DNA from: Ferrimonas kyonanensis DSM 18153
GTDB lineage: Bacteria > Pseudomonadota > Gammaproteobacteria > Enterobacterales > Shewanellaceae
Assembly: GCF_000425405.1 (NCBI RefSeq)
Contig: NZ_AUDJ01000014.1
Location: 62,001-126,000, forward strand
DNA: 64,000 nt
Direction: 5' to 3'
The translations under genes and the position numbers were made by a program. This document shows positions 20,313-64,000 of the stretch, one piece after another (within the stretch, counting starts at the first letter, position 1; each line of letters starts with the position of its first letter). A model generated the notes under the pieces. That model did not search any database. It had not been told where the DNA came from and was given only the letters and a program-made list of their open reading frames with translations.

Positions 20313-20964
20313 ATGTGTACAGGTAGGTGGAGGTAAAAAACACCAAGGCGGTTCGAAATTCACCCAGTGCGTGCATAGATCTCATATTTCGCCAGTGTGT
20401 GATGTTGGTTCGGTAGGGGTTTATGGTGCCAAACCTGCTTATTGGATGCCCGTTTTTATTCTTTTGAAGTCGTTGATAGTTAATATTCCTGCTGGCTTTT
20501 TCTACCGCCGGCGGTTCTCTATAGTGATTTCTCCTTTCATTTCAGTTCATACGCGAGATCCTTCCGCGCTCACACTCTCCAGCAAATATTAGATCTTGAT
20601 CACGCTTGCTTTTTGGGCGTAATCGTCTGATGTAGCGAATAACTAGTCAATTATCCAGTTCGAGAAATTTACATAAAAAAAGCGATCTTTTTTGTTGCGC
20701 AAATGTTGCTGGTAATGCGGGCGAAACTGACGTTTTTTACCCCCTACATTCGATTTTGTGAGGTTTAACTCAATTTGATGGGGTAATTACTAATCTGTTA
20801 AAAACAATTCTCATACATTTTTAACATTTGTGAAACTGTCATCAGGTTGACACAATGTTGCCTGTCGGTGCAGCATTTAACAAAGAGTGAATAACTCTTT
20901 ATCAACAAAAATGAATAAGTAGGCGCTTTCGTTAACTGAAAAGTGCTGTTCAGGGAGAATTATA
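20313..20964. other. long AT-rich leader before TonB receptor 3
   Basis: About 650 bp without a supported gene. A 103-codon frame from 20281 overlaps the preceding terminator and looks random. It contains a TGTCA-N6-TGACA dyad (listed separately) and a weaker CRP-like match around 20590-20605. The receptor's Shine-Dalgarno is AGGGAGA. Confidence 0.5.
20837..20852. promoter_or_regulatory. TGTCA-N6-TGACA dyad upstream of TonB receptor 3
   Basis: TGTCATCAGGTTGACA has perfect inverted arms with a 6-bp spacer. The arms equal those before hypA-cooFS (56759-56774). It is centred 120 bp before the receptor start. It could be a site for a CRP-family regulator such as CooA, or simply a -35 TTGACA with a chance partner. 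Confidence 0.35.
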
Positions 20965-50026: not shown

Positions 50027-50037
50027 GTTACCTCTCC

Positions 50038-50979
50038 TTAGTGCTGCAGCGCTTTGCCAGAGGGGTGATTAGACCCGTGAATCTGGCTGTGGCAGTTCAA
50101 ACAGCTCTGGCCGGCGGTGAAGACGCTGGGCTTGCCGTTGATGTTGTTGCCGCTGTGAGGATTGGTGTGACACTGCTGACACAGCTGAGGAGCACGGTTT
50201 GTCAGCATGCCTTCGTTCACACTGCCGTGGGGGTTATGACAGGCTGAGCAGTCTTCTGCAACCGGGGCGTGCTCCCACAGGAAAGGGCCGCGCTTCTCGG
50301 CGTGGCACTCGTAACAGGTGTCGTTGGTGGAAACCTGATTTAACGCCGCTTCGGACATGGAACCGTGAGGATTATGGCAATCGGTACAGGTCATGTCGGC
50401 CCACTTCAGTGGGTGCGAAGAGCGCTTGTTCATATCGGCCTTCTGGCGAGTATGACAGGCGGTACAGGCGTCGACTTCGGTCACCTTGTCGAGGATCGGA
50501 TCCTTTTCAACGTGGACCTGGTGACAGGAGGCACAAGCCACCTCTTCCAGGTTGTGGGTGCTGGAGTGCCAGGCCATGCGCTCGCCGTCTTGGTGGCAGG
50601 ACAGGCAGACGCTGTTTTGCTTGGCCGCCGGTACCGGGGCGTCGGCGCCAAACTGGATCATCGGCTCCTTGCCACCGCGGTTGTGCTTGCCCTGAGGGCC
50701 GTGACAGGCTTCGCACTGCAGGCCAGCCATGGGGCTCTTACTGCTGGTGCTTTGACCGTGAACACCCTGGAAGATGCCCATGACCTGCTCACTCTTGCGG
50801 TGACACATCAGGCAGCCATCGGCGCCTTTCTTGGAGTATTTGCCTTCGGCAAACTTGGTGTCCAGAATCTGCTCAACCTCGGCGTCGGGCATTTTGTCCC
50901 ATGGTGCGGCGGTGGCACCAAAGCCGGCAACCAGCGCAGCGCCGGCCAGCAGGGTGGTTAACCATTTCATCTGTTTCAT
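50038..50979 (-). CDS. mtrA: MtrA/DmsE-family periplasmic decaheme cytochrome c
   Basis: 313 residues with a signal peptide ([20 protein letters not shown]) and ten CxxCH heme sites: CLMCH, CEACH, CLSCH, CASCH, CTACH, CTDCH, CYECH, CSACH, CQQCH, CLNCH. The repeated NPHGS elements after several hemes are typical of MtrA and DmsE. It would carry electrons from periplasmic donors such as CymA through the MtrB barrel to surface cytochromes. MtrA of Shewanella has about 333 residues. An MtrA role rather than DmsE is suggested by the adjoining OmcA/MtrC genes and the absence of a DMSO reductase. Confidence 0.94.
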
Positions 50980-51034
50980 AAAGGATTCCTAACTCGGGTC
51001 CACAGAAGGGGAGGGCCAGGCCCTCCCCATCGGC

Positions 51035-53050
51035 TTAGAACTTCACGTTGCTGTGGTCAGCCACATCAGGGGCGTGACAAACAAAGCAGTTCTCTGCAGA
51101 AACAGCCAGCTGGGCATCGGCTTTGTCGACGTCGTACACGCCGTTACCGAAGGTACCGCCGGTCATGTGGTCGATGGCGCTTGGGTAGCTGTGGCAGCTG
51201 GCACAGGTGGCCGTGATTGGCGTTCCGTACAGGCCGTCAGCGTAAGGGTTGGCGCCGGCACCGGTGTTGATTGGGCCTTTCTTAGCAAAGGCATTCAGGT
51301 TGAAGCTGGTGTGACACTGGGTACAGTCGTTGATGATGTTCTTATCACCGTGTACCACGTGCAGCTTCTGTTCCCAGGCGCCGTTGTTGTTGAAGGCGTA
51401 GGTGCCGTCAGGGGTGTGACAGGTCACGCAGCCGTCCAGGCCAATCACCTTGCCCTCTTCGTCGTGGGCAACCTGTTCGGTCATCACGAATCCGGAGTGG
51501 TAGCCTTTGTGAATCTGCCAGTTGTCGTTGTGGCAGCCTTCACACTTGCTGAACTCCAGCGAGTCGGTGTGGCGCTTGGATGGGGTAAAGCCGGACTTGG
51601 TCACGAACGCCATGTTGGCTTTCATGCCGGTGTAGTTGTCGGTGTTGTCCGGGTCGGCAACATCGGCACAGGCGACAATGGCATTGCCCTTGGAGCAGGC
51701 AGCCAGGCCGACGAAGGAGAAGGCGGTGTCGGCATCGGTGCCTTCGGCGCCGTATGGCAGACCGGTAATTGGCAGGACAAAGCTACCATCGACGATGGTG
51801 GTGTTGTTGGCCAGTTCACCGTTGCTGACGGCATCCAGATGGCTGCCAGCGCCGTAGCTCAGAACCGGGTAGTTCGGGCCGAGGTTGGTCAGCACTTCGA
51901 TGCGCTTGATCTGAGGCAGTACCTGATCGGCGGCCAGCTTCTGACCATTGGCATCGGTGATGGACACGGTTACCGTGGTGGTGTCGGTGTCGGCGAAGTA
52001 GGCCATCTCGACATCGCTGCCCCACTGGCTGATCACCTCGGCGGCATCGTTCCACTCACCCAGGTGTGCGTCGATGGTGCCCTTAACCACGCCAGTGCCT
52101 TCGGCGGTGTGGCAAGAGGCACAACGGGAGCTGTCAGCCTGTTCCATGATGTGGTTGTTGTCGGCGTGACAGCTGGCACAGTTTTCTTTGGACGGAACCG
52201 CAGACCAGTTGCCCCACTCGGTGATCGCCAACTCTTCCGCTGGAGCGGAGGTTTCGTGACAGACGTTACAGCTGCTCAGCTCAGTCGGGTACTGAATGTG
52301 ACCATCGGCGTCTTCGGCGGCGGCCACTTTGTGCACATCGTGTACCAGTACCGCAAAGGAGCGGTTGGTGCGGCCGCCTTCGGCTTTCAGGCCATCGTGG
52401 CAGGTGGCACAGGTTTCGGGTTCAACGTAGCTGCCGTGGTGAATGCCATTGCCTTCACCGTGACAGGCGGCGCAGGAGTCGGTGGCGACGATATTACGAG
52501 TGTAATCGGCGGCCGCGCCTGCTGCGTTGTAATCAAAGGAGGCCTGACCGTTTGGCACTTCGGTGGTGCCGTCAATCAGGGTACCGGCCGGAGACACGAT
52601 GTTCAGTCGGCGGGTAAAATTCGGATCCAGCTGGGCTTTATCCAGGCTGGTAAAGGTTACGGTGTAGTAACCGTTTTTCTGATCCACGATCTCTGCGGCG
52701 CCGTTGCGGCTGTCATCGCCGGCAAACTGCCACTTGGTGGGGTCGCCAACAACCTGGTGTCCGGCGGGCAGCAACTGGGCCACATTGACCTTCAGCCCCT
52801 GCAAGCCGACAACCGCTTCATCGTCTTCGTTGGTGGCCAGTAGGGTAAATACCGGCAAGCCGTTGCTGAAGCTGGCGTCAGTAACTTTCAGGTTCAGTGT
52901 GGATACGGAAGTGGCGGGCTCGCCACCGGGACGGCCATCTTCGCCGGAGTTACCGTCGTTGCCATCATCGCCGCCACAGGCGGTCAGCGCAGCACTCACT
53001 ACCGCAGCGGTAGCCAGCAGACGCCAGTTAGGTTTGTTCATCATCATCAT
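51035..53050 (-). CDS. OmcA/MtrC-family decaheme outer-surface cytochrome (second copy)
   Basis: 671-residue lipoprotein: four consecutive ATGs, then a signal with lipobox LTAC, then an Asp/Gly-rich linker (GGDDGNDGNSGEDGRPGG). It has ten CxxCH motifs in two groups of five: CAACH, CATCH, CNVCH, CASCH, CASCH and, after a beta-rich domain, CEGCH, CVTCH, CTQCH, CASCH, CFVCH. This is the OmcA/MtrC plan. It should sit on the cell surface and reduce Fe(III)/Mn(IV) oxides or soluble acceptors. AGGGAAAT precedes the start. Position next to the MtrA-type gene suggests it is the MtrC equivalent. Confidence 0.94.
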   Translation of the reverse strand: MMMMNKPNWRLLATAAVVSAALTACGGDDGNDGNSGEDGRPGGEPATSVSTLNLKVTDASFSNGLPVFTLLATNEDDEAVVGLQGLKVNVAQLLPAGHQVVGDPTKWQFAGDDSRNGAAEIVDQKNGYYTVTFTSLDKAQLDPNFTRRLNIVSPAGTLIDGTTEVPNGQASFDYNAAGAAADYTRNIVATDSCAACHGEGNGIHHGSYVEPETCATCHDGLKAEGGRTNRSFAVLVHDVHKVAAAEDADGHIQYPTELSSCNVCHETSAPAEELAITEWGNWSAVPSKENCASCHADNNHIMEQADSSRCASCHTAEGTGVVKGTIDAHLGEWNDAAEVISQWGSDVEMAYFADTDTTTVTVSITDANGQKLAADQVLPQIKRIEVLTNLGPNYPVLSYGAGSHLDAVSNGELANNTTIVDGSFVLPITGLPYGAEGTDADTAFSFVGLAACSKGNAIVACADVADPDNTDNYTGMKANMAFVTKSGFTPSKRHTDSLEFSKCEGCHNDNWQIHKGYHSGFVMTEQVAHDEEGKVIGLDGCVTCHTPDGTYAFNNNGAWEQKLHVVHGDKNIINDCTQCHTSFNLNAFAKKGPINTGAGANPYADGLYGTPITATCASCHSYPSAIDHMTGGTFGNGVYDVDKADAQLAVSAENCFVCHAPDVADHSNVKF

Positions 53051-53400
53051 CAATTTCCCTGCTTTTTTTTGGAGGGGGTTACGTAACGAAGTAACCACCT
53101 TGCCAATCAGTGCTTTAGTCTCGATTAAGATTCGCTAAAGCACTTCTACGAGGTAATTTATATCAACTTCCAGTGTCTATTACTGTGATGTGCATCAGTG
53201 ATTTACATTGCTTTACCCCAAAAGGGGTAAGGGACACATTTTCGTCTCCCTGCAATAACTTAGTTGTAAAAATTGCATTTGTGAACTGAATTCGCTGTCG
53301 GGGCTGAACCAGGCCTGAACCTGGCGGAAATGGCCATGGTTTTTGTTCGGAAATTTAAGAGGGGTTGGCGCGAAATATTCGAGTTTTATCGGGGAATAAA
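53051..53400. other. promoter interval between the two decaheme lipoprotein genes
   Basis: 350 bp without a gene between the second decaheme start and the terminator of the first. It contains an FNR/CRP-like dyad (53184-53199) and a GC-balanced stretch with no other structure I could identify. The presence of a terminator plus a dyad shows that the two cytochrome genes are probably separate transcripts. Confidence 0.6.
53184..53199. promoter_or_regulatory. FNR/CRP-like dyad before the mtrC-like gene
   Basis: TGTGATGTGCATCAGT contains TGAT-GTGC-ATCA, a perfect dyad that matches FNR's TTGAT-N4-ATCAA in 8 of 10 positions and CRP's consensus in 8 of 10. It is centred about 141 bp before the minus-strand start. 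In Shewanella, CRP controls mtr expression, which fits. Confidence 0.5.
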
Positions 53401-53424
53401 AAAAGCGGCCCGAAGGCCGCTTTT
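53401..53424 (-). terminator. terminator after first OmcA/MtrC-family gene
   Basis: AAAAGCGGCC-CGAA-GGCCGCTTTT, a perfect 10-bp stem 20 bp after the stop at 53445. It is bidirectional by symmetry. Confidence 0.92.
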
Positions 53425-53444
53425 ACACTGTGTTGTCATCGGTC

Positions 53445-55607
53445 TTAGTGACCGGTGCCCCAGTTGGCGTGAGCTTCCAGCAACTGGCTGTCGCTGTGAC
53501 AGGTTGCGCAGCTTTCGTTCACCTGAGCCGGGTATTGGCTGGCCGGTACACCAATGGTGTTGATGTCGCCGTCATGGTCGATAACGCCACCCATGCCCTC
53601 GATGTGGGCAACGGTGGAGGCACTGAGGCCATACGGAGGCATGTGGCAGCTTACGCAGGCCGCAGTCTGCGGGGAAACCACCAGTTGCTCATTGGTAGCG
53701 GGATCGAAACGCTGACCATCAGTGGTACCGAAGGCCACAGGCTGGGCATCGGTGGTGTTGGCGATGATGGACAGGGAGTAGCCGTTGTCACCGTGACAGG
53801 TGGCACAGTCGGTCTTCTTGAAGAAGTCGCCGATGTAGTGCTTGCTGTGCACAATGTACGCCAGGTTAGAGGAGCCAGTGCCCTTCTTATCCCGAGTACC
53901 GTTGTGGCAGCTGGCACAGCCGTCGATGTCGTTGGTGTAACGGTGAGTGATGGCGGTGGTGTGACAATCCTGACAGGCGCTCATCTCCGCGTGCTGAACA
54001 CGAGGGCTTTCGGCAACAGCGCTGCCGTCTTGAGCGAAGAAGTAGGTGTCGCTGACCAGGTAAGGGGCATCCTGACCGTCCAGGTTGCCTTCGCCGTCAA
54101 CCACGCAGTCGGCGCGCACACCTTTGCCTTCGAAGCAGACGTGCAGCTGGCTGCTCAGGGCGATGGTGGCACCGGCGTCAACCAGTTCCTTAACCTTGAA
54201 CGCACCGTCATTGATGACTGCCTGAATGCGACCGTCACTCAGCTGGGTAAAGTTGTCGAAGCCGACTTTCTGGTAGTTGACCAGGAAGTCATCGCCCAGC
54301 ACGCCGTTCAGAACGATGGCGCTGTTGAAGCCGCCGTACTTGTAGGGGCGAGGGTCAACTTGAGTCAGGGGTACCAGATCTTCGCCGTCCAGAATCTTGA
54401 AGGTGGTGGTGATGGATAGGCTGTCGGCAGCGACGGTCATCTCATCGAAGACCACATTCAGAGTGGTGGAACGAGCGCTGTCGTTCTGGGTGTAGTGACC
54501 GGCTTCGGCACCGCGGGCACCGTCGGCATTGTGGCAGGACACACAGTTGGTGTATTCCGGCTTAATCGCTTCGCCGCCCCAGTGCCAGCTTGGTACGCCG
54601 TAGGCGCTGTTGTGGCAATTCAGGCAGGTGGCGCTGTCCTTGTCGGCTTTCCAGTGGTCAGCCAGAGGCAGAGCCTCGTCGGCCTGGTGACAGGTCTGAC
54701 AGTTGGAGGCGTTCTGAGGGTAGATACCGTCGTCGGCAAAGAAGGAGTGGCTGTGAATGTCGTGAGCCATGCCCTTGATGGAGCCATCAAACACCATGGT
54801 GCCGGTGACATTGCCATCGGCGTCTTCAATGTCTTTGTTGTAGCTGTTGTAATCGGCGTGACAGAAAGTACAGGACTCCAGAGTCACGTGTTTGCCGCCG
54901 TGCATGGACAGGGCGCCATCATGGCCCGGACGGTGACAGCTTTGACAGGTGGTGTCGGCAATCAGCTCTTTCGGACGCGGCTGGGCCGTATCGGAAGAGG
55001 GCTGCCAGTAGTAGAAGCTGTTTTCGACCAGAGTGGCACCGGCGGCACCGGTCGCTTTCACGCCCAGGTAAATGCCGTTGGTGGCGTCGGCCTGGTAACC
55101 GTAGTCATAGCCCAGAGTATCGATGGCCATGTTCAGGGTCAGGCTGTAGGTGCCGTCCTGGTTGTCGGTCAGACAGTCTTCACAGCTGCTGCCCTTAAAG
55201 TAGGAGGAACCGGTGAAGTGGCCGTCGCCTTTGTCTTTGTTGAAGTAGCTCAACCAGATATCGCGAGGCTCACCCTCGATATCTGTGGTACCCACTTCAT
55301 CTTCATTACCCAAGCGGCCGAAGGAGACCGCACCGATGTCGGCGTTGGTCAGGCCATAAACCGCAACGCCATTGGCGTTGGCCAGGCTGAAGTTCAGTGT
55401 CAGGAACCCATCTTCGCTGACGGAAGCGGAGTTGACCGTGGCTTGCACAGAGGTGGCCTGGCCGATGGCGATGCCAACGGGACCGGGCTTGCCATCTTCA
55501 CCGTCGGAGCCATCAGATCCGTCGGAACCACAGCCAGCCAGGGCGAAAGCCCCGATTCCGGCAAACGCCATTGCGCGCCATAAGGCAGATTGTTTCATCA
55601 TCATCAT
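53445..55607 (-). CDS. OmcA/MtrC-family decaheme outer-surface cytochrome (first copy)
   Basis: 720-residue lipoprotein starting at the first of four consecutive ATGs, after AGGGAAAT. The lipobox is LAGC and is followed by a collagen-like GSDGSDGSDGEDGKPGPVG linker. Ten CxxCH sites in two groups of five: CQSCH, CTFCH, CQTCH, CLNCH, CVSCH, then CQDCH, CASCH, CATCH, CVSCH, CATCH. An extra CxxC without histidine (SSCEDCLTD) lies before the first heme and could form a disulfide. It should be a surface-exposed terminal reductase, OmcA-like by position upstream of the MtrC-like gene. It has its own terminator and promoter region. Confidence 0.94.
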   Translation of the reverse strand: MMMMKQSALWRAMAFAGIGAFALAGCGSDGSDGSDGEDGKPGPVGIAIGQATSVQATVNSASVSEDGFLTLNFSLANANGVAVYGLTNADIGAVSFGRLGNEDEVGTTDIEGEPRDIWLSYFNKDKGDGHFTGSSYFKGSSCEDCLTDNQDGTYSLTLNMAIDTLGYDYGYQADATNGIYLGVKATGAAGATLVENSFYYWQPSSDTAQPRPKELIADTTCQSCHRPGHDGALSMHGGKHVTLESCTFCHADYNSYNKDIEDADGNVTGTMVFDGSIKGMAHDIHSHSFFADDGIYPQNASNCQTCHQADEALPLADHWKADKDSATCLNCHNSAYGVPSWHWGGEAIKPEYTNCVSCHNADGARGAEAGHYTQNDSARSTTLNVVFDEMTVAADSLSITTTFKILDGEDLVPLTQVDPRPYKYGGFNSAIVLNGVLGDDFLVNYQKVGFDNFTQLSDGRIQAVINDGAFKVKELVDAGATIALSSQLHVCFEGKGVRADCVVDGEGNLDGQDAPYLVSDTYFFAQDGSAVAESPRVQHAEMSACQDCHTTAITHRYTNDIDGCASCHNGTRDKKGTGSSNLAYIVHSKHYIGDFFKKTDCATCHGDNGYSLSIIANTTDAQPVAFGTTDGQRFDPATNEQLVVSPQTAACVSCHMPPYGLSASTVAHIEGMGGVIDHDGDINTIGVPASQYPAQVNESCATCHSDSQLLEAHANWGTGH

Positions 55608-55710
55608 TACTATTTCCCTGCAATGTATTAAGGGTTGGCTATGCAAATATCTCTTTTGAGGTATGCACTTCCAACATCAGAAAGATAACTCAGAGTCGAA
55701 TGAATGCAAC

Positions 55711-55724
55711 GTGATCCAACTCAA
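55711..55724 (-). promoter_or_regulatory. FNR-like site before omcA-like gene
   Basis: On the minus strand TTGAGTTGGATCAC matches TTGAT-N4-ATCAA in 8 of 10 positions. It lies about 104-117 bp before the omcA-like start. The match is moderate; binding is inferred. Confidence 0.45.
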
Positions 55725-55955
55725 CATTCCCATATGAATAATCAAATATTCGACCTGTATCGGCCTTCTGGTTCAGTTTCGTACGAAATCTGTTAAGCAA
55801 CTGTAGTTCATCAGCAACATTCTGGTGGCTAACTGCTGATTTTTAATAGGTAATGTATCTGTCGTTACGCACTTGAAAACCGTCATGAAATCGCCCTGAA
55901 AAAGGATGATCTGGATCGCAGTGTGCGTGCCAATTTTGACCAGCAGTCGAAGAAC

Positions 55956-55971
55956 TGTGACTTGTATCATC
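55956..55971 (+). promoter_or_regulatory. CRP/FNR-like site before cymA
   Basis: TGTGACTTGTATCATC has a perfect CRP left arm and a partial right arm (TCA), centred about 99 bp before the cymA start. The FNR match is 7 of 10. A moderate candidate. Confidence 0.35.
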
Positions 55972-56062
55972 ACCTTCCAATTATGTGACAAGTAAAATTT
56001 GGAATTGAGAATTTGTGGCTCCTAATTTATTGAGCCACTGCTTTATTTCATGAGGATGAGAG

Positions 56063-56635
56063 ATGGTAGACAACAATCAACAGTCCGGTTGGGCTAAGTT
56101 GTGGAAGCAACCCAAATCAAAATGGTTGCTGGGTATTCCACTGGGCGCCTTCCTGGCCCTGGCTGTCGGTGCCGTAGGTACCGTTGGTTTTAACACCGTA
56201 CTGCACGCCACCAGCAGTGACGCTTTCTGCGTTAACTGTCACGTGCCGTCCTTTGCCGCTGAAGAGGTGAAGGTCAGCAAGCACGGCATGTCTAAGTCTG
56301 GCATGGTGGTTAACTGCGCCGATTGTCACGTATCCAAAGAGTTCGTGCCAAAAATGATTCGTAAGATCTCTGCCATGAAAGAGGTGTATCTGGAGCTGAA
56401 AGGCGAGATCACCACCAAGGAAGAGTTCCTGGCCTACAAAAAAGACGGTGCCGCTCGCATCATTGCTGAGATGAAGAGCAATGACTCCCGCGAATGCCGC
56501 ACCTGTCACGATGTGAACCGCATGAACTTCGACAAACAGAAGAAAGTGGCGGCCAAGATGCACCAGAAGATGGACAAGATGGGCAAGACCTGCATCGATT
56601 GTCACAAATACAAGGTGGCTCACAAGAAGCCATAA
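56063..56635 (+). CDS. cymA: NapC/NirT-family tetraheme quinol dehydrogenase CymA
   Basis: 190 residues, close to Shewanella CymA (187). One N-terminal membrane anchor (WLLGIPLGAFLALAVGAVGT, about residues 24-44) and four CxxCH hemes: CVNCH, CADCH, CRTCH, CIDCH. CymA oxidises menaquinol and passes electrons to periplasmic carriers, including MtrA-type decahemes. GAGGATGAG precedes the ATG. It is divergent from the OmcA/MtrC-family genes and separated from the CO dehydrogenase operon only by its terminator and 147 bp. It could instead serve fumarate, nitrate or DMSO reduction, as CymA does in Shewanella. Confidence 0.92.
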   Translation: MVDNNQQSGWAKLWKQPKSKWLLGIPLGAFLALAVGAVGTVGFNTVLHATSSDAFCVNCHVPSFAAEEVKVSKHGMSKSGMVVNCADCHVSKEFVPKMIRKISAMKEVYLELKGEITTKEEFLAYKKDGAARIIAEMKSNDSRECRTCHDVNRMNFDKQKKVAAKMHQKMDKMGKTCIDCHKYKVAHKKP

Positions 56636-56666
56636 ACGACTCAGCCAAAAGTTGAGTGGTTAAACG

Positions 56667-56694
56667 ACGCCGGGCATTGCCCGGCGTTTTTTTT
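56667..56694 (+). terminator. terminator of cymA
   Basis: ACGCCGGGC-ATT-GCCCGGCGT followed by eight T residues; separates cymA from hypA. Confidence 0.93.
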
Positions 56695-56758
56695 ACCTGC
56701 CCCTCATTTCTCCCTTTAATGTGCCCTCGAGCGCAGTTGCCAACTTTCCCTTCGCTAG

Positions 56759-56774
56759 TGTCATTCAGCTGACA
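56759..56774. promoter_or_regulatory. CooA-like dyad upstream of hypA-cooFS operon
   Basis: TGTCATTCAGCTGACA is a perfect TGTCA-N6-TGACA inverted repeat centred 75.5 bp before the hypA start. The known CooA target in Rhodospirillum rubrum is, as I recall, TGTCA-N6-CGACA, so this differs at one arm position. A class II layout would put a weak -10 (TTTCAT, 56796-56801) at the right place. No cooA gene lies in the window; a related CRP-family protein could bind instead. Confidence 0.6.
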
Positions 56775-56841
56775 GAATTCCCGCCATCGCTGGTGTTTCA
56801 TAGCCTCAGGTCAATGAGAAACCCACGACACAGGTAACGAG

Positions 56842-57180
56842 ATGCATGAAGCGGCCCTAACCCAAAGCCTGATAAAGGTGCTGTTGACCCAGGCTGAACG
56901 GGTTAAGGCGAACTCCATTTCTCGCGTTACGGTCAAAGTTGGCCAGTTAAAGGCGGTGGAGCCCCAATCCTTGAGTTTCTGTTTTGAGATGTTCGCAAAG
57001 GACACTCTGATTGAGGGGGCGCAGCTGGTTATCGATCACGTCCCCGCTCGGGCAACCTGCCATGGATGCCAGCGATCGTTCGATATTTCCCGGTTCTGTT
57101 TTCGTTGTGACACGTGCCAGAGCCGGGATATCGAACTGATTCAAGGCGAAGAGTTGTTCATTGAAAGCTTTGAGACCTAG
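56842..57180 (+). CDS. hypA: nickel insertion protein HypA
   Basis: 112 residues. It starts MHE, whose His2 is the Ni ligand. The zinc site is C73-x2-C76 and C89-x2-C92 (TCHGCQRS, CDTCQSRD), with an extra Cys86. HypA works with HypB to deliver nickel to NiFe hydrogenase, and in some bacteria to other Ni enzymes. Here it is the first gene of the CO dehydrogenase operon, 11 bp before cooF, and hypB lies at the far end. That placement suggests this pair is dedicated to CO dehydrogenase and/or a CO-linked hydrogenase. Confidence 0.94.
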   Translation: MHEAALTQSLIKVLLTQAERVKANSISRVTVKVGQLKAVEPQSLSFCFEMFAKDTLIEGAQLVIDHVPARATCHGCQRSFDISRFCFRCDTCQSRDIELIQGEELFIESFET

Positions 57181-57191
57181 AGGCTGAAGTT

Positions 57192-57770
57192 ATGAAACAA
57201 ACGGAGAACGTCATTATCTATGCCGACGCAGAGCGATGCCTGGGTTGTCATAGTTGTGAGTTGGCCTGTGCGGTCGCTCATGGTGGCGAAGGCGGCCTGG
57301 TGGGGTCGGTGGTCAAAGGACTGCCGCTTCACTCACGCACCAAGGTGGTGGTGGCGGATGAGGTAATGATGCCGATGCAGTGCCGCCAGTGTGAGAATGC
57401 CCCCTGCACCATGGTGTGCCCAACCGGCGCCTGTCGTCAGGAAAACGGTCAGGTGCAGATCGTCGAGGCCAACTGTGTTGGCTGCAAGCTGTGCGTGATG
57501 GTGTGCCCTTTCGGGGCCATCACCGTGCGGCGGGACAGCCTTCAACAGGAGCAAGACACCAACAATCAGGGGGTGGCACTGAAATGCGACCTGTGTACCA
57601 GCTGGTGTGCCGAGCAGGGCAAGAGTGAGACCGCCTGTGTCGAAGCCTGCCCGACCAAGGCGATCAGCCTGATAAACATGCAAACCTACCGCACCGCCCT
57701 GGTGCAGGCCAGGGCGAAAGAGCTGGCTCAATCTCAAAAACACATGACCCTGACCCTGAGGAGACCCTGA
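57192..57770 (+). CDS. cooF: CooF-type ferredoxin of CO dehydrogenase
   Basis: 192 residues with cysteine groups for four [4Fe-4S] clusters: CLGCHSCELAC, CRQCENAPCTMVCP, CVGCKLCVMVCP and CDLCTSWC plus CVEACP. CooF takes electrons from CooS and passes them to a membrane hydrogenase or another acceptor. The stop and the cooS start overlap by one base (TGATGG), which couples their translation. The length matches R. rubrum CooF (190). It could also resemble HycB/DmsB-type electron-transfer subunits, but the cooS neighbour decides the name. Confidence 0.94.
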   Translation: MKQTENVIIYADAERCLGCHSCELACAVAHGGEGGLVGSVVKGLPLHSRTKVVVADEVMMPMQCRQCENAPCTMVCPTGACRQENGQVQIVEANCVGCKLCVMVCPFGAITVRRDSLQQEQDTNNQGVALKCDLCTSWCAEQGKSETACVEACPTKAISLINMQTYRTALVQARAKELAQSQKHMTLTLRRP

Positions 57771-59680
57771 TGGAGATCATCGTAAAATCCAGCGACGAGG
57801 CCGTTGCAGCCTTGTGCCCGGTGGCAGAAAGCGAAGGCATTGCCACGGTGTTTGACCGTTATAAGGCCCAGCAACCTCAATGTGGTTTCGGTTCTCTGGG
57901 ATTGTGTTGTCGCATCTGCTGGAAGGGCCCTTGTCGGGTCGACCCCTTTGGCGATGGTCCCAGCGAAGGGATCTGTGGTGCCAATCGCGACACCATCGTG
58001 GCCCGCAATGTGGCCCGAATGATGGCGGCGGGGGCGGCGGCCCATTCGGAGCATGGCCGCCACATCGCCCTGGCGATGCAGCGGGTAGGCAAAGGCGAGT
58101 TGCCGGCTTATCAGATTCGGGACCCGAAAAAACTGACCGCCATCGCCGAGCGACTGCAGATTGATACCGGCGACAAATCCGTACTGCAACTGGCGCACGA
58201 GGTCGCCACCAAGACGCTGGAGGACTATCAGAACCAGGATCATCACAAAGGCTGTCACTGGATCAGTGCTTCGGTGCCGAAAAAGCGCCTCGACAAACTG
58301 GCCAAGCTGGGGGTGTTGCCGCACAACATCGATGCCACCGTGGCTCAGATCATGGCCCGCACTCACATCGGCTGTGACGCCGAACCGAGCAACGTTTTTC
58401 TCGGCGGGGTGAGAGGCGCACTGGCCGATTTCAATGGCATGTCGCTGGCGACCGAGTTGTCGGACGCCATGTTTGGCACCCCTGCGCCGGTGGTGACCGA
58501 AGCCAATATCGGCGTGATCGATCGTCAGTCGGTCAACATTGCCGTCAATGGCCATAACCCGCTGCTCAGCGAAGTGATCTGCGATGTCTCCCGCGAGATG
58601 AATCAGGCCGCCATCGAGGCCGGTGCGCCCGGAGGCATTAACATCGTCGGCATCTGCTGTACCGGCAACGAAGTCATGATGCGTCACGGTATTCCATTGG
58701 CGACCAACTACCTGTCTCAGGAGATGGCGATTCTGACCGGAGCCCTGGATGCCATGGTGGTTGACGTGCAGTGCATCATGCCGTCGCTGCCGCAAATTGG
58801 TGACTGCTTCCATACCGAAGTGATCACCACCATGGCCGACAACAAGATGCAGGGAGCGCGTCATGTGGACTTCTGTGAGGAGAACGCCAGTGCCACTGCC
58901 CGCAAGGTGATTCAGTTTGCCATCGATGCCTTTGGCCGCCGGGACCCCAATAAGATCAACATTCCTGACATCAAACGCACCGCCGTGGTGGGTTTCAGCG
59001 CCGAAGCGGTGATGGATGCGTTGGCACAGGTCGACGCCGAGGACCCACTGAAGCCACTGCTGGACCACGTGGTGGCCGGTAACATTCAGGGCATCGCCTT
59101 GTTTGCCGGCTGCAACAACACCCAGAGCGTTCAGGATGAAAGCTATCAGAAGATCGCCAAAACTCTGGCGGCCAACAACGTGCTGCTGCTGGCCACAGGC
59201 TGTGGTGCCGGCGCTTTCGCCAAAAATGGTTTGATGAATCAGCAGGCCACCGAGTTGTACGCCGGTGAGGGGCTGAAGGCGGTGTTGACCGCCGTCGGTG
59301 AGGCGGCCGGCCTCAATGGGCCGTTGCCTTTGGTGCTGCACATGGGCTCCTGCGTCGACAACAGCCGTGCCATTACCCTGGCAACGGCACTGGCCAATCG
59401 CCTGAATGTGGATCTGTGTGATCTGCCATTGGTGGCGTCGGCTCCGGAAGCGATGTCGGAAAAAGCGGTGGCCATCGCCTCCTGGAGCGTGGGCCTGGGG
59501 ATTCCGACTCATTTGGGCACCATGCCGCATGTGACCGGTTCTAAGGTGGTGACGGAGTTAATGACCGAAGGGGCTAAGGATCTGTTTGGAGGCTACTTCC
59601 TGGTGGAAACCGATCCGGATCTGGCCGGCGAAAAACTGGTAGAGGTGATTCGCAACAAACGCCTTGGCCTGGGAATTTAA
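57770..59680 (+). CDS. cooS: anaerobic Ni-Fe carbon monoxide dehydrogenase catalytic subunit
   Basis: Catalyses CO + H2O to CO2 + 2 H+ + 2 e-. It has 636 residues, the usual length for a monofunctional CooS. The D- and B-cluster cysteines are at C38, C46, C47, C50, C55 and C69, the exact spacing of Carboxydothermus CODH-II. C-cluster ligands are present: histidine in NGHNPLL (H262), and cysteines in GICCTGNEVM, VQCIMPS, AGCNNTQS, TGCGAGAFAKNG and HMGSCVDNSR. The active site therefore looks complete. It overlaps cooF by one base and is followed by a stable hairpin before cooC. No acetyl-CoA synthase gene is present, so the role is CO oxidation rather than acetogenesis. Confidence 0.97.
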   Translation: MEIIVKSSDEAVAALCPVAESEGIATVFDRYKAQQPQCGFGSLGLCCRICWKGPCRVDPFGDGPSEGICGANRDTIVARNVARMMAAGAAAHSEHGRHIALAMQRVGKGELPAYQIRDPKKLTAIAERLQIDTGDKSVLQLAHEVATKTLEDYQNQDHHKGCHWISASVPKKRLDKLAKLGVLPHNIDATVAQIMARTHIGCDAEPSNVFLGGVRGALADFNGMSLATELSDAMFGTPAPVVTEANIGVIDRQSVNIAVNGHNPLLSEVICDVSREMNQAAIEAGAPGGINIVGICCTGNEVMMRHGIPLATNYLSQEMAILTGALDAMVVDVQCIMPSLPQIGDCFHTEVITTMADNKMQGARHVDFCEENASATARKVIQFAIDAFGRRDPNKINIPDIKRTAVVGFSAEAVMDALAQVDAEDPLKPLLDHVVAGNIQGIALFAGCNNTQSVQDESYQKIAKTLAANNVLLLATGCGAGAFAKNGLMNQQATELYAGEGLKAVLTAVGEAAGLNGPLPLVLHMGSCVDNSRAITLATALANRLNVDLCDLPLVASAPEAMSEKAVAIASWSVGLGIPTHLGTMPHVTGSKVVTELMTEGAKDLFGGYFLVETDPDLAGEKLVEVIRNKRLGLGI

Positions 59681-59690
59681 CCAACATAGC

Positions 59691-59715
59691 CCCGGGAAGG
59701 CACGGCCTTCCCGGG
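59691..59715 (+). promoter_or_regulatory. intercistronic hairpin between cooS and cooC
   Basis: CCCGGGAAGGC and GCCTTCCCGGG form a perfect 11-bp stem with a 3-base ACG loop. It starts 10 bp after the cooS stop and ends 1 bp before the cooC Shine-Dalgarno (GGAGG). There is no T run, so it is more likely an mRNA-stability or processing element, or a brake on cooC translation, than a full terminator. Confidence 0.7.
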
Positions 59716-59727
59716 TGGAGGTGCAAC

Positions 59728-60525
59728 ATGAAGATAGCCATTACTGGAAAAGGGGGAGTGGGAAAGACCACCCTGGCTGGCTTGCTGGCCCGCAGTCTGG
59801 CCGAGGATAGCTTGCGGGTGCTGGCGGTGGACGCCGATCCCGATGCCAACCTGGCGGCGGCGGTGGGAATTGCTGCCGGGTCGCCGCAACCCTTGCCGTT
59901 TTCCAAGTTGACCGAGCTGGCCCGATCCCGCACCGGCGCCGATCAGAACAGCGGTGGCCTGTTTAAACTCAACCCCAGGGTGGACGACCTGCCGCAGCAA
60001 TTCTGGTTGGAGCATCAGGGGGTACGGGTGCTGAAAATGGGTACCGTCGACCATGCCGGCAGCGGCTGTGTCTGTCCCGAACACACCTTGGTGCGCAGCT
60101 TGATGCGACACCTGCTGCTGGACAGAGATGAGATGGTGATCATGGACATGGAGGCGGGCATTGAACATCTGGGCCGGGGCACCGCCGATGCCGTGGATCT
60201 GCTGGTGGTGGTGGTGGAGCCTGGCAGTCGCAGCGTGCAGACCGCCTTGCAGGTAGAGCAGTTGGCACAGCAACTGGCCATCGCCCGAGTGGGGTTTGTG
60301 GCCAGTAAGGTCGACGGTCCCGACGACCTGGAGTTTATTCGTCAGGCTCTGGGCCCGAAGCGAACCCTGCTGGGGCAATTGAGCTGGAGTGACACCCTGC
60401 GTCGTGCCGATAAGTCCGGCCAATCCCCGTTTGATTTTTCCGGCCCCTTCATCGAGGAAGTCGATGCCATCAAGCGGGCGCTGCTGGCCCTGGTACCGAG
60501 GATGGAGGAGGCGGCTCATGTGTAA
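59728..60525 (+). CDS. cooC: CO dehydrogenase nickel-insertion ATPase CooC
   Basis: 265 residues. MinD/ParA-type ATPase with the deviant Walker A GKGGVGKTTLAGLL starting near residue 6 and VDADPDANLA at the switch region. A C-x-C pair in GCVCPEHTL (C114, C116) matches the metal-binding cysteines at the CooC dimer interface. It drives nickel loading of the CooS C-cluster. GGAGG precedes the ATG. Its last 8 bp overlap cooT. Confidence 0.95.
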   Translation: MKIAITGKGGVGKTTLAGLLARSLAEDSLRVLAVDADPDANLAAAVGIAAGSPQPLPFSKLTELARSRTGADQNSGGLFKLNPRVDDLPQQFWLEHQGVRVLKMGTVDHAGSGCVCPEHTLVRSLMRHLLLDRDEMVIMDMEAGIEHLGRGTADAVDLLVVVVEPGSRSVQTALQVEQLAQQLAIARVGFVASKVDGPDDLEFIRQALGPKRTLLGQLSWSDTLRRADKSGQSPFDFSGPFIEEVDAIKRALLALVPRMEEAAHV

Positions 60526-60730
60526 CGTCAGTGTGATGCTGGTGACCCCGACGTCGGCAGAGACCATTGAAGAGGTCACCGGCATCGAAGTGCACGGAGA
60601 GGCCTTAGTGATCACCACTTTTTTTGATCCCCCGCGCCAGCTGTCTGGCTATCGGCTGGTGAGCGCCGATTTTCTTAAACGACAGATCGTGCTGGAACAG
60701 CCACAGAAATCAGGAGACAACCATGAGTAA
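60518..60730 (+). CDS. cooT: CooT nickel-binding protein
   Basis: 70 residues, starting MCNVSVML, in the overlap with cooC (8 bp) and ending in an 8-bp overlap with the next gene. R. rubrum CooT is about 66 residues, also begins with Met-Cys and binds Ni through Cys2. The body (IEEVTGIEVHGEALVITTFF, then GYRLVSADFLKRQIVLEQ) fits the small beta fold. Predicted role: nickel chaperone for CooS. The overlap on both sides fixes the start. Confidence 0.85.
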   Translation: MCNVSVMLVTPTSAETIEEVTGIEVHGEALVITTFFDPPRQLSGYRLVSADFLKRQIVLEQPQKSGDNHE

Positions 60731-60959
60731 CGAACGGCAAATTTTGCTGCAAAAAATGCAGCGGTTGCTGCCCCACTGGCAACAGCATAACGATGAGCAC
60801 ATCAATGAAATGGAGCGGTGGCAGCATCAGTTGCTGGCTCAGGAACTGACTGAGTTGGCACAGTCGATTGCCGATGTGGTGGTGCAGATGAAAACTACCG
60901 GTCAGCGCCTGCAGCAGGCTCAGGACACAGTGACCACTTACTCCGACAAGAGTGCCTAG
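60723..60959 (+). CDS. cooJ: short CooJ-like nickel chaperone without His-rich tail
   Basis: 78 residues, mostly helical and coiled-coil-like. It contains HWQQHNDEH (about residues 18-26), which fits the HW-x2-H-x3-H nickel motif described for the N-terminal domain of R. rubrum CooJ. The long His-rich C-terminal tail of that protein (about 115 residues in all) is absent: after QQAQDTVTTYSDKSA the gene stops. Its order after cooC and cooT is the same as in R. rubrum. It may be a reduced nickel carrier keeping only the dimer-interface site. It overlaps cooT by 8 bp. Confidence 0.75.
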   Translation: MSNERQILLQKMQRLLPHWQQHNDEHINEMERWQHQLLAQELTELAQSIADVVVQMKTTGQRLQQAQDTVTTYSDKSA

Positions 60960-60988
60960 TCGGTTCAGGAGGCAGAGGAGAGTCAGCC

Positions 60989-61729
60989 ATGTGCAATAAC
61001 TGTGGATGCAATGTGACGTCGGGCAATCGCCACCTGCTGGAGGCCGGGGGCAAACTGGAACACAGTCAGGGACGGCGAACCATTCAGGTGCTTGAGGGGT
61101 TGCTGGATGAAAACGATCATCAGGCGATGCACAACCGCGAGCACCTGGACCAGCATCGGGTCGTGGCCATCAATCTGATGTCTTCGCCGGGCAGCGGCAA
61201 AACCCGACTGCTTGAGGCCTGCCTGCCAGAACTGGCGAAGATGGGCATTCGGGTTGGGGTGATCGAGGGGGATTTGGAGACCGAGAACGATGCGGCTCGT
61301 ATCCGCAAGCATGGGGTGCCGGTGCTGCAAATCACCACTGGCATGGCCTGCCACCTGGATGCCCACATGGTGCACAACGCCCTGCATTATCTGCCGTTGG
61401 CGGAACTGGACCTGCTGTTTATTGAAAATGTGGGCAACCTGGTGTGTCCTGCCAGCTTTGATTTGGGTCAGCATCAGGATGTGGTGTTGCTGTCGGCCAC
61501 CGAGGGGGACGATAAACCCTGTAAGTATCCGGTGATGTTTCGCAGCGCCGATAGGGTGCTGATCTCCAAGGTCGATCTGTTGGCCCACTTCGATGACTTT
61601 GATGCCCACCGGGCGCAGGCCAATCTGGAGCAACTGGGGCTGGCGCAACCGGCGTGGCAGGTGTCGGCAAAAACCGGACAGGGATTGGAAGCGTGGTTGG
61701 CGTGGTTGGCAGAGTTAGTGAAGAAATAG
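60989..61729 (+). CDS. hypB: nickel incorporation GTPase HypB
   Basis: 246 residues. The N-terminal high-affinity Ni motif MCNNCGC (C2, C5, C7) is present but there is no His-rich stretch. The GTPase P-loop SSPGSGKT and the G-domain metal site in GMACHLDAHMV and NLVCPASFDLG are conserved, as is SKVDLL. It acts with HypA to hand over nickel. It is the last gene of the hypA-cooFSCTJ-hypB unit, 29 bp after cooJ with AGGAGGC nearby. The operon so brackets cooS with both general Ni chaperones. Confidence 0.95.
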   Translation: MCNNCGCNVTSGNRHLLEAGGKLEHSQGRRTIQVLEGLLDENDHQAMHNREHLDQHRVVAINLMSSPGSGKTRLLEACLPELAKMGIRVGVIEGDLETENDAARIRKHGVPVLQITTGMACHLDAHMVHNALHYLPLAELDLLFIENVGNLVCPASFDLGQHQDVVLLSATEGDDKPCKYPVMFRSADRVLISKVDLLAHFDDFDAHRAQANLEQLGLAQPAWQVSAKTGQGLEAWLAWLAELVKK

Positions 61730-61754
61730 GGTAAATTCACGGCAATGATTATCG

Positions 61755-61780
61755 GCGCCCAGGCTATATTGTGTGGGCGC
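61755..61780 (+). terminator. possible weak terminator after hypB
   Basis: GCGCCCA / TGGGCGC with a 12-base loop and TTATTG after it. It is too weak to be sure; read-through into the following gene is possible. Confidence 0.4.
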
Positions 61781-61857
61781 TTATTGTGCTGCCAAAAATA
61801 AAGTTATTTCTGTTTTTTTGCCTTTTTATTGTTTGTTTTCTTATGGGTTTTATTTTG

Positions 61858-61871
61858 TTGATCATGGTCAC
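61858..61871 (+). promoter_or_regulatory. FNR-like site before membrane polyferredoxin gene
   Basis: TTGATCATGGTCAC matches TTGAT-N4-ATCAA in 8 of 10 positions. It is centred about 54 bp before a perfect TATAAT (61916-61921), close to the class I activator distance of -61.5 from the start of transcription. Candidate for anaerobic control. Confidence 0.4.
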
Positions 61872-61915
61872 GAATAGACACTAAGCGATGAACGTTAAGA
61901 CTATTTTGAACTCAA

Positions 61916-61921
61916 TATAAT
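61916..61921 (+). promoter_or_regulatory. candidate -10 of membrane polyferredoxin gene
   Basis: Perfect TATAAT, 27-32 bp before the start codon, with no good -35 at 17 bp. This suggests an activator-dependent promoter and a transcript separate from hypB. Confidence 0.45.
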
Positions 61922-61947
61922 TACGACTTGTTATTAAGAACTGAATT

Positions 61948-63162
61948 ATGACTGTAATCGAATCCATCACTCTGATGTTCGGCCTGGTGTTTTCTTTAAG
62001 CCTGCTCTATTGGAGTAATCAGAAGTGGGGACTGTTGTTAACCGCCGCCTTGATGGTGACGGCGTTGGCGCTCACCTTGTACTGGCCGCTGTTGCTGGGG
62101 GCGGCGGTTGCCATGCTGGCGCTGGTCGCATTGCACCATTGGCGACCGGAGATTGCCCGTGGCCAGGGACGGGAGAATGGCCTAAGGGATTGGGTGCATC
62201 ACTCGATGTCCTTGGCGATGGTGTTGGTGGGCATCCAGTATGTGCTGTATTACAGTTTGCTGGGCCAGGGAGTGGAAACCGGATTGGGACGACCGGATGT
62301 GGTGGATGCGTTTTTGCCGATTGCCGGTGGCATCGAATTGAAAGCCATCATCATGTTGAACCTGTGGGACCAAAACCACCCAGCTGCGGCTGTTATGCTG
62401 ACCTCAGTATTATTAAGTGGATTGATTTGTAAGCGCGCATTCTGCGGTTGGATCTGTCCTTTAGGTCTGGCTGGTAAATATTTGTACGATTTGAGGGTGC
62501 GTTTTATTAAGGGCGCTTATTTGGCTCCAAAATGGTTGGATTGGCCATTAAGAATGCTGAAATACCTTTTATTATTGGGGTTGTTTTACATCGTAATTGG
62601 TATGCCAGCGGAATCTTTGCCCTATTATCTCGATGGCAACTATCAAAAGATAGCCGACCTTAAAATGGGACTGTTTTTTGCTAATCCCAGTGTGCTCGCT
62701 CTGGTGGTCATTGCTGTGATTCTGGGGCTGGCGGCTTGGCAACAGCAGGCATTTTGTCGCTACCTGTGTCCCTACGGTGCACTGTTGGGGCTGCTGAGCT
62801 TCCTCAGCCCGTTTAAGGTGCGACGGGACACCAACCACTGCCTGATTCAGTCCCGAGGGATGAAGTGCGATAAGTGCACTCGCGCTTGCCCTGCGCGAAT
62901 CCAGGTGCATACCGAGAGCACCGTACGTTCCGATGAGTGTCAGGCTTGCATGCGCTGCGTGGCGGCCTGTCCTAAGAAAGAGGCGCTGCAGGTGTCGACT
63001 CGCTGGGGGCAGACCCTGTCGGCTCGAGGGGTGCTGATCATCCTGTTGTTGCTGATGTTTGCAGTGCCATTGGTGGCCTATGTCGGCGGCTTCTGGCATA
63101 GCCAGGTCAGTGATGCCACCCGCATTGAGTTAATGAAATACATCCATCAGATAGGCCACTGA
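61948..63162 (+). CDS. membrane-bound 4Fe-4S polyferredoxin (NapH/YccM-like)
   Basis: 404 residues. Several transmembrane helices are interrupted by two cytoplasmic CxxxCP motifs (AFCGWICPLG and AFCRYLCPYG). Two ferredoxin clusters follow (CDKCTRACP and CQACMRCVAACP), then a final helix. This is the NapH/NosR/YccM layout, in which such proteins move electrons between quinol and soluble carriers. Its place between hypB and the proton-channel gene suggests a partner for CooF, linking CO electrons to the quinone pool. Codon use between about 62395 and 62690 is markedly more A/T-rich than in the rest of the gene and neighbours. The exact partner is not known. Confidence 0.85.
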   Translation: MTVIESITLMFGLVFSLSLLYWSNQKWGLLLTAALMVTALALTLYWPLLLGAAVAMLALVALHHWRPEIARGQGRENGLRDWVHHSMSLAMVLVGIQYVLYYSLLGQGVETGLGRPDVVDAFLPIAGGIELKAIIMLNLWDQNHPAAAVMLTSVLLSGLICKRAFCGWICPLGLAGKYLYDLRVRFIKGAYLAPKWLDWPLRMLKYLLLLGLFYIVIGMPAESLPYYLDGNYQKIADLKMGLFFANPSVLALVVIAVILGLAAWQQQAFCRYLCPYGALLGLLSFLSPFKVRRDTNHCLIQSRGMKCDKCTRACPARIQVHTESTVRSDECQACMRCVAACPKKEALQVSTRWGQTLSARGVLIILLLLMFAVPLVAYVGGFWHSQVSDATRIELMKYIHQIGH

Positions 63163-63204
63163 GCCTGATCCTCTTCGTTCACTGAGTGTTTCAATGTGAG
63201 CCTT

Positions 63205-63239
63205 GCCTGAGTCCCTGTGAAGGGGCTCAGGCTTTTTTG
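63205..63239 (+). terminator. terminator after polyferredoxin gene
   Basis: GCCTGAG-T-CCC pairs with GGGG-CTCAGGC, followed by TTTTTT. It ends the transcript before the proton-channel gene. Confidence 0.85.
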
Positions 63240-63313
63240 TGTTTGGCGGCCGAAACCCGCCTCCTCGGTAAAAGCGTGATGGGGGCAACGATTAGGCAAC
63301 ATACCGGCGCGGC

Positions 63314-63329
63314 TGTCGGCTCGCTGACA
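63314..63329. promoter_or_regulatory. CooA-like dyad upstream of proton-channel gene
   Basis: TGTCGGCTCGCTGACA reads TGTCG-N6-TGACA, flanked by C and G that extend the dyad. It is centred 70.5 bp before the start codon, nearly the same distance as the dyad before hypA (75.5 bp). A class II -10 would fall on GACACT (63351-63356), which is poor and so would need an activator. Confidence 0.55.
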
Positions 63330-63391
63330 GAAATCCCCTTCACCATACCGGACACTGCCCCTATGGCACTGTTGCTTGGATGAGGATTGCT

Positions 63392-64000
63392 ATGGGTGAG
63401 TTATCGGTGTGGGCCTGGGGAGGGGCCGCGCTGTTATTAATCGGAGAGTTATGGGCCTGGTTGCATTATCGCAATCTGGGGAAGTTGCTGCTGTTTTCCA
63501 CCGTCGCCGAGATGGGGTATCTGGGATTGGGCTTGGGCCTGGACACCACCCTGGGGGAGACCGGTGCCTGGTTCCACCTGTCGCTGCAGGTGGTGATGCG
63601 ACTGCTGGTGATCGTGGCGGCCTGGCGGTTGATTCGTCGCGCCGGAAGTGCCGATCTGACCGAGGTGGCCAAGGTGGCGCCGCAGTTACCCCTGACCCGA
63701 TTGATGTTGGGCTTTGGGTTGTTTTCTGTCATGGGGCTGTCGCCATTTAAAGGGGCATTCAGCAAGTTCATTATTTTGTATTCGGCGGTGGATCTGGGGC
63801 ACTGGGCTCTGGCCCTGACGGCGACGCTGGCCAGCGTGGTGGCGGCGGTGTACACCATCACGGTGATTCAGGCTCTGTGCTTTGGACCCCAGGCGGACGG
63901 TCAGCGCTGGCGAGAGTGGGCGTTTGGCAGTCGCTCCTGGTTGCTGATGGTGTCACTGGCGGCGATGACGGTGCTGCTGAGCCTGGATCCCGAGCCTTTG
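63392..64000 (+). CDS. ND5/ND2-like proton-channel subunit, probably of an energy-converting hydrogenase (partial)
   Basis: Open to the right edge (203 codons seen) from an ATG preceded by GAGGA. Hydrophobic protein of the NuoL/NuoN/MrpD/HyfB superfamily. LFSTVAEMGYLGLGLGL and GFGLFSVMGLSPFKGAFSKF correspond to the conserved helix pair with the half-channel lysine (SPFKG). In R. rubrum the CO-dependent hydrogenase begins with such a subunit (CooM), and a CooA-like dyad precedes this gene. A NADH dehydrogenase or Mrp antiporter subunit is the alternative. The missing genes to the right will decide. Confidence 0.8.
   Translation, partial: MGELSVWAWGGAALLLIGELWAWLHYRNLGKLLLFSTVAEMGYLGLGLGLDTTLGETGAWFHLSLQVVMRLLVIVAAWRLIRRAGSADLTEVAKVAPQLPLTRLMLGFGLFSVMGLSPFKGAFSKFIILYSAVDLGHWALALTATLASVVAAVYTITVIQALCFGPQADGQRWREWAFGSRSWLLMVSLAAMTVLLSLDPEPL

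Follow-up and report, generated by a model that had tools for sequence, protein, structure and literature searches.

What controls carbon monoxide (CO) oxidation in Ferrimonas kyonanensis DSM 18153? Towards the end of a 64,000-nucleotide stretch of its genome (assembly GCF_000425405.1, contig NZ_AUDJ01000014.1, positions 62,001 to 126,000; the window from here on) lie the predicted nickel CO dehydrogenase (CODH) operon hypA-cooFSCTJ-hypB and the start of the energy-converting hydrogenase (ECH) operon cooMKLXUH, preceded by the inverted repeats (dyads) TGTCATTCAGCTGACA and TGTCGGCTCGCTGACA, respectively ( Table 1 ). An earlier note on this DNA had ascribed both dyads to a CooA-type CO sensor encoded outside the window. 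Gene content, CooA homology, site conservation and a family-wide -10 spacing together make it very probable that the two dyads are CooA operators, at which CO-bound CooA would activate the CODH and hydrogenase operons.

The predicted regulator gene is present at C8:132766-133437, about 6.8 kb past the end of the window, so that a genome lacking such a gene, named in the earlier note as a refuting outcome, does not apply here. A search of the genome for Crp-type helix-turn-helix proteins recovered three over the cut-off, one of them on the same contig beyond the window; this gene, cooA, starts 85 bp after the cooH stop codon, in the same cluster. Its product carries a cyclic-nucleotide-binding-like sensor domain (PF00027) and a Crp-type helix-turn-helix (PF13545), both over cut-off. 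The four best relatives of solved structure are all CooA proteins (2fmy, 2hkx, 1ft9 and 6cpb; E-values 1.6e-49 to 9.4e-32), with near full-length matches to CooA-1 of Carboxydothermus hydrogenoformans (1.6e-49) and to CooA of Rhodospirillum rubrum (2.2e-44). Next among solved structures come 4k8f (1e-20), an unnamed sensor domain of Crp/Fnr type, and others, with Escherichia coli CRP from about 1e-8. Also, the histidine at position 77, a haem ligand of CooA, is found in all 25 CooA proteins read, that of the window's cluster included. A tree of 26 rows groups the five Ferrimonas CooA proteins with those of Shewanella, Photobacterium and Sodalis (12 rows, 98/97), the long outgroup branches being unsure.

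A direct check of the sequence placed the dyads at 56759-56774 and 63314-63329, as the earlier note had it. The centre-to-start distances of 70-76 bp given there were likewise recovered, being 75.5 bp for hypA (ATG 56842) and 70.5 bp for cooM (ATG 63392), or 58.5 bp for the latter if the in-frame cooM ATG at 63380 is taken instead. That neither promoter has a good -10/-35 pair was borne out by a consensus sigma-70 scan of 56640-56860 and 63165-63410, which found none. Since a terminator-like hairpin precedes each dyad (56666-56688 and 63205-63232) and no such pair is found, each dyad probably heads a transcript of its own.

Both positions are conserved among relatives. CooA (E ≤ 1e-25) and CODH over cut-off were found in the same five of 14 Ferrimonas genomes; a dyad precedes hypA in all five of these and cooM in four. 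The cooM dyad is also found in Photobacterium, Sodalis and Azospirillum, a single dyad lying between divergent cooM and hypA in Sodalis. A scan of named genomes by CooA alignment, whose peptide patterns reach part of the family and did not return R. rubrum, gave 23 loci from Ferrimonas, Shewanella, Photobacterium, Sodalis, Azospirillum, Geomonas and Citrifermentans, and from metagenome-assembled genomes (two of Desulfuromonadales type and one each of Acidobacteriales, Desulfovibrionaceae and Pacebacteria). The dyad occurs in 21 of these 23 CooA-anchored loci. The two lacking it are the F. aestuarii locus L085, a stretch that stops short of the hypA promoter, and the Pacebacteria locus L105, which matches at 22% and shows no coo match. 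The dyads of four of the 21, all from Shewanella, lie upstream of a cooA-napH pair and not before a CO operon. Across 26 loci (454,365 bases) 34 dyads were counted against 0 reversed controls, 20 shuffles yielding 1.3 on average and 3 at most. This set comprises part of the window (50001-62000), L020, L030-L033, L086-L104 and L036; L083-L085, L034 and L035, which represent the same places as others, and L105, for its 22% match, were left out.

The spacing between dyad and promoter was analyzed in 30 dyad-bearing promoters hand-picked from the CooA loci, with the Sodalis dyad read towards cooM, L083, L084 and L102 left out as duplicates of L030, L032 and L035, and the dyads of the four Shewanella cooA-napH pairs scored separately. 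The mean match to TATAAT is highest at 21 bases beyond the dyad, with 3.53 of 6, and stays at or below 2.2 at every other offset between 5 and 49. A hexamer of the form TA...T stands at 21 bases in 16 promoters and at 22 in three more (19/30 together), and none of 2000 shuffles, which do not keep the relatedness of the promoters, reaches either the observed mean match or the TA...T count at 21 bases. A subset of 18 promoters without near-duplicates has TA...T at 21 bases in eight and at 22 in three, again with 0/2000 shuffles matching the value at 21. With the hexamer taken as -12 to -7, the dyad centre falls at -41.5; a CRP-type class II activator at -41.5 overlaps the -35 element. This predicted class II position appears clear for the 30-promoter set; the hexamers of the window are weak. 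A weak -10 without a -35 would fit an activator-dependent promoter.

The proposed switch would operate as follows. CooA, a predicted haem-containing CO sensor of the CRP/FNR superfamily, would bind CO in its ferrous form, and the CO-bound protein would then bind both dyads, centred near -41.5, stand in for the -35 element and activate RNA polymerase as a class II activator. The expected output is the switching on of the CODH operon and of the proton-pumping hydrogenase operon, within their predicted boundaries, the two enzymes together being expected to yield CO2, H2 and a proton gradient from CO and water. Because so short a gap separates it from cooH, cooA is probably co-transcribed with that gene, which would give positive feedback.

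Several observations weigh against this interpretation, and they bear on different alternatives. The dyads could be chance palindromes, or sites of another CRP/FNR-type factor such as CRP or FNR, the CO operons being controlled otherwise; the same cell does encode FNR-like and CRP-like proteins. Within the window TGTCRN6TGACA occurs at 3 places with 5 strand matches (shuffle mean 0.43; 0/100 shuffles reach 5). Genome-wide (4.93 Mb), TGTCRN6YGACA occurs at 16 places and the reversed pattern at 11, a count that puts the bare dyad close to chance and shows no clear over-representation. A tighter pattern, TGTCRN4GCYGACA, chosen after the sites had been seen, is found at exactly 2 places in the genome, both of them CO promoters; its three strand matches equal those of the reversed control, so that the evidence it offers is one of location and not of count. 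On both grounds over-representation was dropped as proof, and since the bare dyad is at about chance frequency, it is position and conservation that carry the case. The dyad before hypA has, moreover, a single TGTCRGC arm, its left arm reading TGTCATT. As to spacing, neither promoter of the window has TA...T at 21-22 bases. When hexamers 20-22 bases away were scored on either side of the other 14 of the 16 dyads of the genome, probably not CooA sites, one of 28 scores reached 4/6 (the reverse side of the dyad at 20837) and several reached 3/6, the score of the window's cooM site. As a test of single sites the -10 spacing is therefore weak: it supports the family-wide picture but does not single out the sites of the window. 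The earlier note had set the CO-promoter dyads against possible occurrence at unrelated promoters at chance frequency; this concern is justified for the bare dyad elsewhere in the genome, but the CO-promoter dyads are kept in F. sediminum and at distant CooA loci. In a comparison with F. sediminum covering 15 of the 16 dyad loci, four align: the two CO sites, at the same place in both species, and only two of the 13 others, namely a site before an Aer-like gene and one within a 624-amino-acid open reading frame (ORF). This conservation, together with that in the other Ferrimonas, the -10 spacing across the family and the half-sites of CRP (TGTGA) and FNR (TTGAT), which differ from TGTCR, makes chance or another factor a very unlikely explanation.

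A regulator that is CooA by descent might, in Ferrimonas, respond to redox or another ligand more than to CO. This would agree with two residues that differ from both solved CooA proteins: position 75 is Ser in F. kyonanensis and Cys in the solved pair, and residue 2 is Gln, against Ala in C. hydrogenoformans. The N-terminus M-Q-S-K-M, from a start codon chosen by the analyst (GTG 8766 of L020), aligns at equal length with M-A-T-Q-M of the latter. The other haem ligand of CooA is the N-terminal amine, that of Pro2 in R. rubrum, and Gln2 should leave the initiator Met in place. Counted from the likely start codons, the gammaproteobacterial coo/napH and Azospirillum CooA proteins have Gln, Tyr, Arg or His as residue 2, and three others (L094, L098 and L104) have Pro. 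Cys75, a haem ligand of R. rubrum CooA in whose place Ferrimonas has Ser, was treated as a sub-feature and not as family-defining; Ser or Thr occupies this position in 25/25 CooA proteins read, many of them beside coo genes, His77 is kept, and the Ferrimonas gene shares a cluster with CODH and hydrogenase. A shift to another signal is thus highly improbable. Compatible with the two dyads being CooA operators, and unlikely though less so, is that CooA drives the CODH operon only and that cooM is reached mainly by read-through or from a second promoter. F. aestuarii (G374), which has no dyad before cooM, and the 3/6 hexamer of the window's cooM promoter speak for it; the hairpin that separates the NapH-like gene from the dyad (63205-63232) and the cooM dyads of the four other CODH-bearing Ferrimonas, Photobacterium, Sodalis and Azospirillum speak against it.

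Two further dyads were considered and not counted as CooA sites. One, at 20837-20852 of the window (TGTCA-N6-TGACA), stands before a TonB receptor gene at 20965; it has no TGTCRGC arm, is not among the dyad loci common to F. sediminum, and at 20-22 bases shows a -10 match of at most 2/6 towards the receptor, with TATGAG (4/6) in the opposite direction. The other, TGTCAAAATRCYGACA (C1:310681-310696; L006:1501-1516), ends 23 bp before the start codon of the Aer-like PAS chemoreceptor and is without -10 geometry. It is kept in CooA-bearing Ferrimonas (G000, G399, G402 and G391) and also in G398, a genome in which neither CooA (E ≤ 1e-25) nor CODH over cut-off was found. A separate dyad, TGTCAGTCAGCTGACA (locus L044, G401:C3:180000-180015), was noticed in the Ferrimonas genome G401, in which CooA was not found; some 1.6 kb away is a weak match to the CODH/prismane family (178206-178409), which may be hcp.

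How much of this is new can be judged from known CooA systems. The R. rubrum targets at cooF and cooM given in the earlier note are indeed cited, as CooA sites before both genes, in PMC6557876. The F. kyonanensis arrangement resembles that regulon in its pair of CODH and ECH clusters, its regulator family and its sites upstream of cooF and of cooM. Likely differences are that in Ferrimonas the CODH operon begins with hypA and ends with hypB, that cooA comes after cooH and that the two operons are separated by a NapH-like gene. For Desulfovibrio a CooA consensus, TGTCGGCnnGCCGACA, has been published that is said to conform to the known region at R. rubrum cooFSCTJ; in the predicted regulon it lies upstream of cooSC, with a weaker form upstream of cooMKLXUHF (PMC545781). 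Desulfovibrio differs from Ferrimonas in operon composition and in having a predicted HcpR site as well (PMC545781). In the gammaproteobacterium Citrobacter amalonaticus Y19, transcription of the CODH and CO-hydrogenase operons depends on CO and the sites read TGTC(A/G)N6(C/T)GACA (PMC5371261). Ferrimonas likewise has two such operons and such sites, but those of Y19 diverge from one intergenic region with a predicted CRP overlap, whereas those of Ferrimonas lie in tandem, each with a site of its own.

PMC6687684 already counts F. futtsuensis, F. kyonanensis and F. sediminum among the CODH-ECH genomes; a term search of its main text did not find CooA. A 2026 survey places CooA, RcoM or CorQR adjacent in 99 of 179 genomes with putative Ni-CODH/ECH (PMC13077300); Ferrimonas is not named in its main text and may be included in its tables. 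No paper joining CooA and Ferrimonas was found in open-licence PMC. Already known are the CODH-hydrogenase clusters of Ferrimonas, the CooA consensus and the CO dependence of coo transcription in Citrobacter. The present case appears ordinary in kind: one more bacterium with a probable textbook CO switch, for which the comparison with relatives gives good support. It adds this probable switch to the Ferrimonas clusters already listed. The promoter rule (dyad, 21 bases, -10) could help in recognizing CooA regulons by sequence across several bacterial groups, and two leads emerge for CooA outside CODH operons, namely cooA-cowN in nifH-bearing Shewanella, a pairing known elsewhere, and cooA-napH in CODH-free Shewanella.

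The latter, putative pair is the least ordinary by-product of the analysis. In Shewanella metallivivens, S. sp. KJ10-1, S. algicola and S. saliphila cooA is followed by a NapH-like gene, whose product is 60% identical to that of the window. All four carry the identical dyad TGTCAGCAAGGCGACA, 0.57-0.8 kb upstream of cooA-napH, within conserved DNA in which no gene is convincing. Towards cooA a -10-like hexamer (4/6) follows at 21 or 22 bases, as against at most 3/6 in the other direction. For L086, L091 and L020, Rfam returned nothing above gathering scores. Neither Ni-CODH nor Mo-CODH was found over family cut-offs in the four genomes, completeness not being given for three of the four assemblies; some Shewanella have CODH, strains M2 and R106 being listed as CODH-ECH genomes (PMC6687684). 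A tentative possibility, somewhat less probable than not, is that CooA became uncoupled from CO metabolism in a Shewanella lineage, that it senses CO there to re-route or protect respiration, and that the NapH-like protein belongs to the Ferrimonas CO response too.

In S. mangrovi and the Shewanella genome G301, in both of which nifH was found over cut-off, the order is a gene for a distant CooA (35-37% identity), a dyad in which both arms read TGTCAGC, and cowN (PF20543; start at 6445 in L035). Likely CooA control of cowN has been described for other diazotrophs (PMC8047169).

Table 1. Coordinates of the features discussed, in positions of the window unless a locus is given.
Feature	Position	Strand	Remarks
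CooA-type operator (predicted) TGTCATTCAGCTGACA	56759..56774	+	ahead of hypA-cooFSCTJ-hypB
Weak -10-like hexamer TTTCAT (4/6)	56796..56801	+	21 bases after dyad; same hexamer and spacing in 5/5 Ferrimonas hypA promoters
hypA	56842..57180	+	Pfam HypA 4e-33; first gene of CODH operon
cooF, ferredoxin-type electron carrier	57192..57770	+	name from 4Fe-4S domains and position
cooS, Ni-CO dehydrogenase	57770..59680	+	TIGR01702, 756 bits, cut-off 478
cooC, nickel-insertion ATPase	59728..60525	+	CbiA/MinD-type ATPase domain; name from domain and position
cooT	60518..60730	+	Pfam CooT 1.8e-6, 28.6 bits, cut-off 27
cooJ-like small ORF	60723..60959	+	name from position
hypB	60989..61729	+	cobW/HypB/UreG nucleotide-binding domain
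NapH-like polytopic 4Fe-4S membrane protein	61948..63162	+	between the two operons
CooA-type operator (predicted) TGTCGGCTCGCTGACA	63314..63329	+	ahead of cooM
Weak -10-like hexamer GACACT (3/6)	63351..63356	+	21 bases after cooM dyad
cooM, 1257 amino acids	63392..64000	+	start of energy-converting hydrogenase operon cooMKLXUH; runs past window end
Mtr/Omc/NapC-type genes	48071-55646 and 56063-56635	- and +	MtrB-type porin, cytochromes; beside coo genes
cooA and NapH-like gene with CooA-like promoter	L086:9418-12036; same in L087, L089, L091		four Shewanella
Distant CooA, dyad, cowN	L036:6549-7555 and L035:6152-7193		two nifH-bearing Shewanella

The hydrogenogenic Ni-CODH/ECH cluster has CooS, CooF and the CooMKLXUH group-4 hydrogenase. 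The gene that had been described as a proton-channel gene proved to be cooM, after which cooK, L, X, U and H lie past the window end; CooH keeps both its CxxC motifs. Apart from CooS, CooH and CooK, subunits are named by their order and by homology among loci, and domain searches gave no family match for the cooJ-like ORF. The NapH-like gene is present in the coo cluster of two of the five CODH-bearing Ferrimonas and was not found within the 20 kb fetched for the other three. Genes of the extracellular-electron-transfer type adjoin the coo genes of the window, with an MtrB-type porin, multihaem MtrA-like, MtrC-like and OmcA-like cytochromes and a NapC-type cytochrome.

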